In this document: piece by piece, positions 23,166 to 38,424 of the stretch
Numbering within the stretch: the stretch's first letter is position 1
How the letters are laid out: every line of letters begins with the position of its first letter
From: Candidatus Gastranaerophilales bacterium
GTDB lineage: Bacteria > Cyanobacteriota > Vampirovibrionia > Gastranaerophilales > Gastranaerophilaceae
Assembly: GCA_944323875.1 (NCBI GenBank)
Contig: CALUUH010000017.1
Span: forward strand, 1 to 42,851
DNA length: 42,851 nucleotides
Direction of reading: 5' to 3'
Notes under the pieces: model-generated
What the model saw: only the letters and a program-made list of their open reading frames with translations
What the model was told of the DNA's origin: nothing
Databases searched by the model: none
Made by a program: the position numbers and the translations under genes

Positions 23166-24965
23166 ATGGCTAATGACAAACGTAAAAACGGGAACAACCA
23201 GAGTGTGGCAAATAGTGTTCCTGACAAAAAGATTATCATAGCAGAACGCGATAATATCGCAGCGGTTATGGAAAACGGAAAAGTTACCGATTTCTTTATC
23301 CACAGAGGTGACGTACTTTTAGGTGATGTATATCTTGCGACTGTGGATAATATTTTGCCGAGTATTGATGCGGCATTTGTTGATGTAGGGTCTGATAAAA
23401 TGGGCTTTTTGCATGCAGAAGATATAATGGGCAAAGGCACATTAAAAGAAAAAGTTACACCGAAACAGAAATTAATTGTTCAGGTTGTGAAAGAACCAAC
23501 CGGCCACAAGGGCCCGAGAGTCACTACAGAATTGAGTCTGCCGGGAAGATTTCTTGTATTGATGCCGAATGAACCGGGCGTCAGCATCAGTAAAAAGATT
23601 GAAAATTCAAAAGAAAGAGCAAGATTAAAAGCTATTGTTAACCTGATTAAACCTGTCGGCGTCGGAGTTATTATCCGTACAGAAGCAGAAGGCCAGTCAG
23701 AAGCAGATATTCAGGAAGATTTGGAAATTCTTCTTGAAAAATGGAACAACATCATTACATCAGCAGAAACACTGACTCCGCCAAATCTTTTATACAGAGA
23801 TCAGGATTTGTTATACAGAGTTATCCGTGAAGCTTGTACGGATGATGTAAAAGAAATAATTGTCGATACAGCATTTGCCATGAACAGAGTTCAGAATATT
23901 CTGCAAAACTGGCATATTAACAAAAATGTTCAGGTAACTTTATACAAAGGTACAGAACCGTTGTTAATCGCAACTGATGTTCACAAAGAAATAAAAGCAG
24001 CTTTGCAGACCAAAGTTAATATGCCGTCAGGCGGATATCTGTTTATCCAAACAACAGAAGCTCTAACCGTAATTGATGTTAACAGCGGTAAGTTCACAAG
24101 TTCATCAACTCAGGATGAAACCATTTTGAAAACAAATATAGAAGCAGTGCATGAAATAGCACGCCAGCTTCGTTTGCGTAATATCGGCGGTATGATTATC
24201 ATAGACTTTATTGATATGATGTCCCGTGCTGATAAACTGGCAATGATGGAAGAATTGGAAATTGCACTTGAACCGGACAAAGCAAAACCGCAGGTCGGCC
24301 AGCTTTCGGATCTTGGACTTGTTGAATTAACAAGACACCGTCAGGGACAGAGCCTGTCAGAAATATTTACAAAAAAATGTCCTCATTGTCAGGGCAGCGG
24401 ATATTCAATGGTTGATTTTAATTTTGCAACGCCAACTGCAGAGGGTGAATACCGTGCTAAAGCAGCAAAATTGAAATTGCCGATAAACAGCGGTTTCAAA
24501 AAGAACAAAAATAATAATAACCGCCAGCAGTCAGAACAACAAAACGCTGAACAAAATGTTCAGGAAATAAAACAACCTGCTGTAGAGATAGAGGTTGAAA
24601 ATCCGTCAGAAGCTGCAGTTCAGGAAACAGAACAACGGGAAAATACGAAAAAACGCGGCCGCCGCAACAACAAGCGCGACAAAAAGGTTGTAGTAGAAGA
24701 ATCAATCCCGACAGCAGAAACACTTCTCAAGCCAAATGAAGAAATTAAACCTGTAATCGAAGAACAGCCTGAAAAAGTTGAACAGGCTGCTGAAAATAAT
24801 GTTGAAAATACCGAAACTGTTCCAAATGAAGAACAGCCGGAAAATGCGGCAAAAGCGGAAAAACCAAAGAGAACACGCAGACCAAACCGCGGTTCTTCAA
24901 AATCTTCTAAAAGATCCCGTTCAAAAAAATCAACTGAGACAGATGAGGCAAAAGTTGAATCATAA
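23166..24965 (+). CDS. rng: Ribonuclease E/G
   Basis: The catalytic part (about residues 20-430) has the S1-embedded fold with GDVYLATVDNILPSIDAAFV, the DNase-I-like active site TVIDVNSGKF, DFIDM, and the zinc-link CPHCQGSG (Cys405 and Cys408). The last 160 residues (about 440-599) are a low-complexity Glu/Lys/Gln/Arg tail with arginine-rich patches (KKRGRRNNKR, PKRTRRPNRG), probably a disordered RNA- or protein-binding region as in RNase E. It cleaves single-stranded AU-rich RNA and matures rRNA. The window also encodes RNase Y, so this organism has both main endonucleases. Confidence 0.93.
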   Translation: MANDKRKNGNNQSVANSVPDKKIIIAERDNIAAVMENGKVTDFFIHRGDVLLGDVYLATVDNILPSIDAAFVDVGSDKMGFLHAEDIMGKGTLKEKVTPKQKLIVQVVKEPTGHKGPRVTTELSLPGRFLVLMPNEPGVSISKKIENSKERARLKAIVNLIKPVGVGVIIRTEAEGQSEADIQEDLEILLEKWNNIITSAETLTPPNLLYRDQDLLYRVIREACTDDVKEIIVDTAFAMNRVQNILQNWHINKNVQVTLYKGTEPLLIATDVHKEIKAALQTKVNMPSGGYLFIQTTEALTVIDVNSGKFTSSSTQDETILKTNIEAVHEIARQLRLRNIGGMIIIDFIDMMSRADKLAMMEELEIALEPDKAKPQVGQLSDLGLVELTRHRQGQSLSEIFTKKCPHCQGSGYSMVDFNFATPTAEGEYRAKAAKLKLPINSGFKKNKNNNNRQQSEQQNAEQNVQEIKQPAVEIEVENPSEAAVQETEQRENTKKRGRRNNKRDKKVVVEESIPTAETLLKPNEEIKPVIEEQPEKVEQAAENNVENTETVPNEEQPENAAKAEKPKRTRRPNRGSSKSSKRSRSKKSTETDEAKVES

Positions 24966-35725: not shown

Positions 35726-35876
35726 TTTCTCTCTCCTTTTACCTCTTTATTATAGCACTTTTGTCAATAGTTGTAAATTGTAATTTTTATGTATCAAAAT
35801 CTTAATTGCTACTATACAAAAATTCATTTATATGCTATGCTATTTACAAATGTAGTAGGTAAATATTTTTGGATAT

Positions 35877-35952
35877 ATATGCAATAAAGAAAAATATTTA
35901 AAAAGAGCTTTGAATATACTCGATAGGTTAAATGTATCGAGCTATTGCATAT
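35877..35952 (+). promoter_or_regulatory. Structured 5' leader of the RNase Y gene
   Basis: ATATGCAATA (35877-35886) pairs with TATTGCATAT (35943-35952), closing a 76-base element. Inside it, CTCGATA (35919-35925) pairs with TATCGAG (35935-35941) around a 9-base loop. All stems are perfect. The element ends 36 bases before the ATG of rny. It could be an autoregulatory or ligand-sensing leader. It does not match a riboswitch class I recognise. Confidence 0.5.
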
Positions 35953-35988
35953 TATTAAAAAATAGAAAAGGATAAGGTAAAAAACTTT

Positions 35989-37509
35989 ATGGACTTTTTA
36001 TTGATTATCGCGATTATTGTGGTAATAGCTTTGATCGCAATGCTGTATGTCCAGCAATCCAAAATGAAAAACGTGCTTACAAGCACAGAAAAAGACCGTT
36101 TGGCTCTGGAGGAGAAAGAAAAAATCCTTTTAAAAGAAGCAAAAATCAAAGCAATCGAGGAGCTTCAGGATGACAGAGAAAAACTGAACGAAGAAGAAAG
36201 AGAACGCAGGCAGGAGCTTGCAAGATTGGAACAAAAACTCGCAAAACGCGAAGATATGCTTGAAGATAAAATTCAGGAATATACTGACAAAGATCTTCAA
36301 GTTCAGCGTAAACTTGATGAACTTCTTGAAAAAGAAGATTATCTTGCAGAAATAGTTCAAAAACAAACAACCGAATTGGAAAGAATTTCCGGCATGTCCG
36401 CAGAGGATGCAAAAAACATGCTCTTAGACCAGTTAAAACACGACCTTGCGCAGGAGCAACTGCAGCTTATCAGAGAAAATGAAGCTAAAATAAAAGAATC
36501 CGCGCTGGAAAAATCTAAAGAAATTCTTTCAACAACAATGCAAAGATGTATGATAGAGCAGGTGGTAGAAACAACGGTTTCCGTTGTGGCTCTGCCTAAT
36601 GACGATATGAAAGGCCGTATAATCGGACGTGAAGGACGTAACATACGTGCGCTGGAAACCCTTACCGGTGTTGATTTAATCATTGATGATACTCCGGAAG
36701 CCGTTGTATTATCAAGTTTTGACCCTGTAAGACGTGAAATAGCAAAACTTGCACTTGAAAAATTAATCGTTGACGGCCGTATTCACCCTGTCCGTATTGA
36801 AGAAATGGTTGAAAAAGCCCGTGAAGAAATTGAAAGAAAAATATGGGATGAAGGTGAAAGCGCCGCTGTTGATATGGGTATAATGGGACTTAACAAAGAG
36901 TTGATAAAAACTCTCGGCCGCCTGTACTATAGAACAAGTTACGGTCAAAATGTTTTGAAGCACTCACTGGAAGTCGGTCATATTGCAGGCATGCTGGCTG
37001 CTGAACTGGGCGCAAATGTAGCTGTTGCAAAACGCGCAGGACTTTTGCACGATATCGGTAAGGCTGTTGATCAGACTCAGGAAGGCACTCATATTCAACT
37101 CGGTGTTGAGCTTGCTCTGAGATACGGTGAAAAACCGGAAGTAATTCATGCAATAGAAGCGCACCATGATGACGTTGTGGCAAACACTATTGAGGCTGTT
37201 CTTGTAAAAGTTGCCGATGCAATTTCTGCAGGACGTCCGGGCGCAAGACGCGACACCCTTGAAATTTACATCAAGCGCCTGCAAAAGATTGAAGAAATCG
37301 TCAACAGTTATGAAGGCATCAAGCAGTCATTCGCTGTTCAGGCCGGACGTGAAGTCCGCATTATTGTTGAGGCTGAAAAGTTTGACGATCTTGCTTCTCA
37401 AAAGCTGGCGCGCGATATTGCAAAACGTATTGAAGATGAACTGGATTATCCGGGACAAATTCGCGTTACTGTAGTCAGAGAATTCAGAGCAACTGAAATC
37501 GCTAAGTAA
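35989..37509 (+). CDS. rny: Ribonuclease Y
   Basis: The 506-aa protein shows all RNase Y parts in order: an N-terminal membrane helix (about 3-22), a long coiled coil (about 30-190), a KH RNA-binding domain with [15 protein letters not shown] near residue 210, and an HD domain with LLHDIGK (H354-D355). It is a membrane-bound endonuclease that starts mRNA decay. The AAGGATAAGG region provides the SD. The next gene is ymdB, the order known from Bacillus. Confidence 0.95.
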
Positions 37510-37572: not shown

Positions 37573-38424
37573 ATGTCAGGTGATGAAACATTAAAAATAT
37601 TATTTTTCGGAGATTTGGTCGGTAAACCCGGACGCTATGCGGTCAGGGATTTTTTGGCTGATCCGAAAGCTTTTATCCCTGATGCCGATTATGATTTTGA
37701 TAATGTTTTCTGTATTGCCAATGTTGAAAACGCATCCCACGGGTTTGGATTGACTGATAAAAATTACCACGATATTGAGTCTTACGGAATTGACTGTATG
37801 ACGTCAGGCAACCATATCTGGGATAAAAAAGAGATTTTTAACTATATTGATAAAGCTGACAAGCTTGTCCGTCCTTTTAATTATCCGCCGGAAACAAAAG
37901 GCGCGGGAAGTCGTATTTTTGAGTTTAACGGTATAAAAATAGGCGTGATAAATGCACTGGGGCGCGTATTTATGGCTCCTGTTGATTCACCATGGCAGGG
38001 TGTATTGGATGAAATAAAACGATTAAAAGAAATCACCCCTGTTGTAATAGTAGATTTTCATGCAGAAGCAACCGCTGAAAAAATATGTTTTGCCCGTCAC
38101 TGTGCGGAACTCGGTGTCAGCGCTTTTTTCGGTACGCATACTCATGTGCAGACCGCTGATGAACAGATTTTAAACGGAATGGCATATATTACGGACGCCG
38201 GTTTTTGCGGCGCTTATGAAAGTGTTATCGGAATGGATTACGCCACTTCTTTAACAAGATTTACAACCTGCGTGCCTGAACGTTACGATGTAGCAGACAG
38301 CTCTGTTACCCAGTTAAATGCTGTTGAAGTTGATATTAATCCTTCCGTGGGGCAAGCTGTTGCTATAAAAAGAGTTTTTTGTTTTATAGATAAGAATGAT
38401 AAGGAAGAAAGGCATGAAGAGTGA
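37573..38424 (+). CDS. ymdB: YmdB-family metallophosphodiesterase
   Basis: The 283-aa protein fits the TIGR00282/YmdB family, with FFGDLVGKPGR, CIANVENASHGFGLT, MTSGNHIWDKKEI, VDFHAEATAEK and GTHTHVQTADEQIL, which hold two metals. Characterised members hydrolyse cyclic nucleotides such as 2',3'-cAMP, a product of RNA breakdown. A tight location behind rny supports a joint role in RNA turnover. AAAGGAA precedes the ATG. It overlaps the next gene by 11 bases. Confidence 0.92.
   Translation: MSGDETLKILFFGDLVGKPGRYAVRDFLADPKAFIPDADYDFDNVFCIANVENASHGFGLTDKNYHDIESYGIDCMTSGNHIWDKKEIFNYIDKADKLVRPFNYPPETKGAGSRIFEFNGIKIGVINALGRVFMAPVDSPWQGVLDEIKRLKEITPVVIVDFHAEATAEKICFARHCAELGVSAFFGTHTHVQTADEQILNGMAYITDAGFCGAYESVIGMDYATSLTRFTTCVPERYDVADSSVTQLNAVEVDINPSVGQAVAIKRVFCFIDKNDKEERHEE

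Follow-up and report, generated by a model that had tools for sequence, protein, structure and literature searches.

A covarying RNA leader tied to the ribonuclease Y gene in a clade of Gastranaerophilales, with a probable role in adjusting RNase Y levels

Genes and predicted expression signals at the rny locus

The window considered here, that is, the whole stretch of 42,851 nucleotides that was analysed, carries the ribonuclease Y gene rny on the + strand (35989-37509, AUG start; TIGR03319, E 1.1e-197), and the named near relatives of this gene are largely "Candidatus Gastranaerophilales" MAGs. RNase Y is a KH-domain membrane endonuclease. Upstream of rny, in divergent orientation, lies a leucyl aminopeptidase gene, and directly after it a metallophosphoesterase gene (37573-38424, +), which reaches 237.9 bits with TIGR00282, just below the curated cut-off of 254.15, and which we take to be ymdB-like. 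The same window also encodes an RNase E/G (23166-24965, +).

Two motifs upstream of rny are likely to form its promoter. An extended -10, TGC-TATGCT (35833-35841, +), has the form TGnTAnnnT in 43/43 relatives, and a -35-like hexamer, TATACA (35813-35818, +), is assigned its putative promoter role by the conserved spacing: in 42 of the 43, TATACAA or TATGCAA precedes the -10 by exactly 17 bp. Based on these motifs, transcription is predicted to start near 35848, which would give rny a leader of about 141 nt. A start beyond 35900, which would be at odds with the folded, possibly self-controlling leader proposed in a first-pass annotation of this DNA, is thus not what the promoter motifs predict. 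In many relatives, a CTACTA-like sequence at TATACA and a TAGTAG at the transcript start bracket the promoter as an inverted pair (35810-35860), a possible operator. At the other end of the leader, the Shine-Dalgarno region (35966-35977, +) is conserved in the alignment. AAGGU and ACUUU (35974-35988) can form a small hairpin over a second Shine-Dalgarno copy, and this hairpin is predicted in several relatives too.

The leader folds into a three-way junction

The segment 35877-35952 has a minimum free energy of -20.9 kcal/mol, compared with a mean of -8.13 for shuffled sequences (z -5.34; 0/200 shuffles equally good). The 10-bp closing stem and the 7-bp hairpin described in the first-pass annotation are both exact. 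The former, here P1, pairs 35877-35886 (AUAUGCAAUA, +) with 35943-35952 (UAUUGCAUAU, +), and the latter, P3 (35919-35941, +), pairs 35919-35925 with 35935-35941 and presents the loop UAGGnUAnAUGUA. A further AU-rich hairpin that the annotation lacked, P2 (35894-35917, +), pairs 35894-35902 with 35909-35917, and with this extra arm the segment becomes a three-way junction.

Single-sequence folds predict that P1 extends outward into a helix, P0, in which 35864-35875 (+), with an invariant U run, would pair with 35953-35964 (UAUU.AAAAAUA, +), the latter ending just 5' of the Shine-Dalgarno region. The 5' end of the leader (35848-35863, +) is predicted to be single-stranded; it carries a conserved GAUGUAGUAG-like sequence in the alignment, and its mean pairwise identity is 76%, compared with 47% at four-fold sites.

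The stems covary in relatives and the P3 loop is conserved

For the comparison with relatives, we used a MAFFT alignment (A1) of 43 leaders selected from 68 rny upstream regions, from which duplicates, near-identical rows, a leader with a long insert (L061) and non-matching leaders were excluded. The first 42 candidates came from a regular expression that included the loop motif, and the rest were added with a less strict expression or manually; conservation of the loop within A1 is therefore partly selected, while stem covariation is nearly free of that selection.

RNAalifold recovered the same three helices from A1 independently, with two-sided changes somewhere in 11 of the 23 pairs. Across the 43 leaders, standard pairs make up 97.0% of paired cells, and two-sided changes were counted in 67 cells, compared with a mean of 15.7 after shuffling (0/500 shuffles reached 67) and 8-26 when the partners were slid. 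P1 is paired in 99.5% of cells, with two-sided changes at 2/10 pairs, and P3 in 99.4%, with two-sided changes at 5/8 pairs, including wholesale swaps among C-G, U-A and G-C; the 5-bp consensus core of P2 is paired in 87.9%. The compensatory changes for which the first-pass annotation had suggested looking are thus present in both P1 and P3. Mean pairwise identity runs from 95% in the P1 5' strand through 88% in the P3 loop, to which the selection just described contributes, to 50% in P2, the four-fold sites of the same genes giving 47%. The loop is unchanged in 30 distinct aligned hairpins (L051, in which it is lost, excluded).

Two leaders depart from the common form. A long additional hairpin replaces P2 in L061 (2315-2496), with P1 and the P3 loop retained, which indicates that the P2 site tolerates insertions; in L051 (2361-2490), the conserved loop is gone, whereas P1 is retained, as is the P3 stem for the most part. 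As for P0, its four U-A pairs are invariant and its remaining pairs are kept in 26-40 of the 43 rows, with almost no two-sided change, so that covariation does not speak for this helix and the invariant pairs are neutral on its existence. We treat P0 as a predicted helix, drawn from the invariant U-A pairs and the folding model.

The palindromes might also be read as DNA operators rather than as RNA structure, given that P3 is an interrupted dyad in the DNA and that the CTACTA/TAGTAG pair surrounds the promoter in many rows. Against this, G-U pairs, which favour pairing in RNA, are frequent (28/43 and 32/43 rows at two P1 positions and 20/43 at one P3 position), and P3 is located some 75 nt into the predicted transcript; we consider operators an extremely improbable account of the stems.

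A different question is raised by the loop itself, in which AGG-n-UAn-AUG could start a short upstream ORF with translation coupled to rny. The loop AUG is invariant in the 30 aligned hairpins (again with L051 excluded), and in 44 of 48 leaders the stop of the short ORF precedes the rny start. In these 48 leaders, however, the ORF is 1-123 codons long and falls in all three frames relative to rny, and the codons within the stem vary along with the base pairing. Attenuation by an upstream ORF or leader peptide was rejected because neither length nor frame is conserved, and coupling of this kind appears improbable.

The RNA is found upstream of rny and of no other gene

A covariance model built from the relatives' leaders (R1) was used to search 146 genomes of the family, a search that is independent of the A1 selection for genomes outside A1. 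With adjacency to rny counted by eye rather than by script, R1 at E <= 0.01 matched 88/146 genomes; the match directly precedes rny in 87 of them and sits at a contig end in the remaining one, with none elsewhere. At E <= 1, 90/146 genomes matched: in 88, the match borders rny on its upstream side, in G071 it sits at a contig end and in G083 (E 0.16) elsewhere; second, weak matches away from rny were found in two genomes (E 0.26 and 0.92). When 117 genomes from the phylum were searched, matches came from 48 members of the family and, weakly, from one other genome (E 0.04).

The loop motif occurs once in the window's own genome, at 35924-35936. Five relatives together have it in the rny leader and at four more sites in all, the reversed pattern being found at eight, and G015 has one extra loop-motif site compared with none for the reversed pattern. 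Reuse of the P3 loop in other mRNAs was rejected, as the extra sites are few and, by eye, only those in rny leaders fold as P3. The R1 matches beside rny, together with the single occurrence of the motif in its own genome, mark the element as a single-gene device, and we conclude that a conserved, covarying RNA leader is tied to rny alone, in a single clade of gut bacteria whose genomes are of the Gastranaerophilaceae type.

The E. coli rne 5' UTR element is known in Rfam as rne5. Neither rne5 nor any other Rfam family matched the window at gathering thresholds, and nothing relevant appeared up to E 5, which bears out the first-pass impression that the leader matches no recognised riboswitch; at the loci of 13 relatives, the Rfam search returned nothing but a tRNA elsewhere. 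A search of the open-access literature, with subscription papers and preprints outside its scope, found no description of such an rny leader. The family of rny leaders thus appears to be new.

These results also bear on whether the leader could be a small-molecule riboswitch, for which a compact junction with a conserved loop would be suitable. The element sits on rny alone, the sole neighbour in 87/87 mapped cases at E <= 0.01, with no Rfam match, no terminator and no Shine-Dalgarno switch seen; a riboswitch was therefore rejected as the leading idea, and we regard it as very improbable.

The leader is predicted to leave the ribosome site open

Averaged over the 43 leaders, the predicted unpaired fraction of the Shine-Dalgarno region is 0.50 with the leader and 0.55 without it, and the predicted accessibility of the AUG is 0.47 and 0.48, respectively. 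No intrinsic terminator was predicted on the + strand of the leader. Sequestration of the Shine-Dalgarno region was rejected, as its predicted accessibility is hardly altered by the leader, and so was transcription attenuation, given the lack of a + strand terminator. Taken together, these predictions make control through mRNA lifetime likelier than hiding of the ribosome site.

The leader might act on the mRNA without any feedback, by stabilising the rny 5' end or by serving as an insulator or ribosome stand-by site. The long stem stops a few nucleotides before an open Shine-Dalgarno region, as a stabiliser or stand-by site would have it, but simple protection needs no invariant loop with covarying flanks and need not be confined to rny. 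We assign this reading a small but appreciable probability.

Putative near-cognate rny starts in most of the order

infC uses near-cognate start codons, as does pcnB. We examined 80 further rny upstream regions (L142-L221), from genomes without an R1 match or with weak or unsampled ones, and in 64 of them AUC (34), AUU (18) or AUA (12), here summarized as AUH, stands at start-codon distance after a Shine-Dalgarno sequence that is usually GAGG. The commonest context is AGGACAAUH, and such putative starts occur in six of the seven sampled families of the order. By a strict definition, under which the stretch between the preceding stop and the sixth codon after the AUH has no in-frame ATG, GTG or TTG, 32 of these loci are strict and 15 near-strict, and 17 are ambiguous, with an in-frame ATG, GTG or TTG close by. 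The 16 regions without the AUH motif comprise nine R1-matched loci (L201, L214-L221) and those of G126, G029, G035, G069, G043, G150 and G155. The GAGGNNNAGGACAATH motif was found at rny in 6/10 genomes tried, eight of the ten having AUH starts, with one match elsewhere.

As a positive control, infC was readable in 11/20 genomes, and 6 of the 11 have no canonical in-frame start before the conserved N-terminus. As a negative control, the downstream TIGR00282-type gene was scanned at 26 loci, AUH loci included; its conserved motif was located in 14, and in 13 of these an in-frame ATG precedes it, L051 having GTG only. The structured leaders have ATG in 43/43 cases and the AUH motif in 0/43. From these sequence patterns, rny across most of the order seems to start at AUC, AUU or AUA, like infC, and its start-codon annotation in the order is probably wrong. 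In the AUH genera, the R1 scores of the leaders are weak; the best of them, located where a leader would be expected, has 19.4 bits (E 0.22). Deep homology with the structured leaders was set aside on these scores, which are only suggestive of a shared leader architecture.

One clade combines the structured leader with AUG

rny was found in 96/98 genomes of the order and in 0/48 genomes of the same class outside it, and the nearest sequences beyond belong to Clostridia and other Firmicutes, with about 53-61% identity. RNase E/G was found in 56/60 genomes of the class, the window's included. Replacement of RNase E by RNase Y is therefore wrong, both enzymes being present; RNase Y was added to RNase E. 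One genome (G159, contigs C34 and C38) has two full-length rny genes, of which one resembles that of family f1 (82%) while the other is divergent (64%); contamination may be the reason.

In a quick tree of 59 RNase Y proteins, computed with the first 60 alignment columns omitted and with SH-aLRT support only, the structured leader and the AUG start are both placed in a single clade, which comprises 23 rows (SH-aLRT 99). At least four changes of start type are needed on this tree and at least two of leader type, the second leader change being the G029 row, whose rny lies within the structured-leader clade without an R1 match; this row (g25) is labelled leader-less, yet four other g25 genomes match R1 (G063, G089, G110 and G129). 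Leader and AUG coincide once only on this tree, so that their exchange for the near-cognate start would be a single event. Such an exchange is suggested by the distribution of the two types on the tree and is not a statistical result.

Discussion

The leader probably adjusts the amount of RNase Y. What fits the observations best is, we infer, a cis-acting governor of rny alone that operates after transcription. Elements of this kind on nuclease genes most commonly follow a logic of feedback by the encoded enzyme, and by analogy autogenous control by RNase Y is a plausible mechanism, and the likeliest one. RNase Y would dock on P3 and cut single-stranded AU-rich RNA beside the stem, in the 5' segment or the U run; excess RNase Y would thus lead to a cut leader and to rny mRNA opened to decay. 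Judging from the tree, the leader may have taken over from an older brake, the near-cognate AUC, AUU or AUA start still kept by most of the order. The explanation as a whole, a cis-acting rny governor that works autogenously through RNase Y and succeeds a near-cognate start brake, has in our view an even chance of being right.

Its evolutionary part can be stated on its own. In most of the order, the near-cognate start would throttle initiation of RNase Y synthesis, as for IF3, and one clade, which includes the window, would have swapped this brake in a single step for AUG together with a feedback RNA of its own, whose recognition loop stands before no other gene. We put this forward tentatively and lean slightly against it.

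The explanation as a whole is weakened by the G029 rny without a match inside the clade, by the lost loop of L051 and by the single occurrence of the exchange. The main doubt about autogenous control concerns the loop, as an invariant loop is more readily explained by a reader that binds RNA than by a nuclease of loose specificity. In the B. subtilis study, RNase Y is described as having little sequence specificity (PMC10303841), a poor fit with such a loop, and another protein, RNase E included, could be the reader. The leader would then be read by a different nuclease or a protein that binds RNA, RNase E being the prime candidate, so that one endonuclease would control the other. RNase E/G is indeed encoded in the same window, and the Synechocystis enzyme cleaves its own 5' UTR inside a stretch of six uridines (PMC10989929), the rny leader having an invariant run of at least four U. 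This U run, however, is predicted to be paired in P0, and the most conserved unpaired part of the leader is the P3 loop rather than the U run. Control by RNase E or another such protein is, in our estimate, unlikely, and autogenous control through RNase Y stays the preferred mechanism.

Overproduction of decay endonucleases has to be avoided, and for the two major ones, RNase E and RNase Y, feedback on the enzyme's own mRNA has been reported. If the proposal holds, RNase Y would have a defined, covarying RNA element devoted to it, a sharp substrate for asking how an enzyme described as having low sequence preference recognises its own message. It would also mean that evolution has swapped one expression brake for another on a single gene, in a manner readable across the families of the order, with two unrelated control devices exchanged on one RNA-decay gene.

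Comparison with known systems

The closest precedent is rny of B. subtilis, where RNase Y autoregulates by cutting its own transcript in the 5' UTR and the early part of the ORF (PMC10303841). The first-pass annotation had held that self-control of RNase Y through its leader would be new; autoregulation through the mRNA was already published for B. subtilis, and what appears to be new is the RNA family and the proposed start-codon exchange around it. The two leaders are alike in being long and AU-rich, with 164 nt there (PMC10303841) and about 141 nt predicted here, and in that control runs through the gene's own mRNA in B. subtilis, as we propose here. They differ in that cleavage of the B. 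subtilis transcript is spread over many sites in the 5' UTR and about the first 100 nt of the ORF, and the sections of PMC10303841 consulted describe neither a junction nor a loop that is conserved, whereas the present leader has a defined covarying structure.

The 5' UTR element of E. coli rne is likewise a conserved structured leader on the gene of a decay endonuclease and is used there for feedback; it serves another enzyme, and the rny leader is without an Rfam match. In the RNase E feedback element, the stem-loop is bound without cleavage, as summarized in PMC10303841. The rne 5' UTR of Synechocystis belongs to the same phylum and also to a decay endonuclease gene. The enzyme there is RNase E instead of RNase Y; it cleaves the leader of its own mRNA where this is rich in U, and premature termination is involved (PMC10989929), whereas no terminator was seen in the rny leader.

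Finally, infC and pcnB encode products that act on RNA or on initiation and are held low by an AUU, AUC or AUA start, the infC of S. aureus having AUA (PMC13009471), and rny in most of the order looks alike. The difference is that the putative near-cognate start belongs to the rny of the relatives, whereas the window's own rny starts with AUG.
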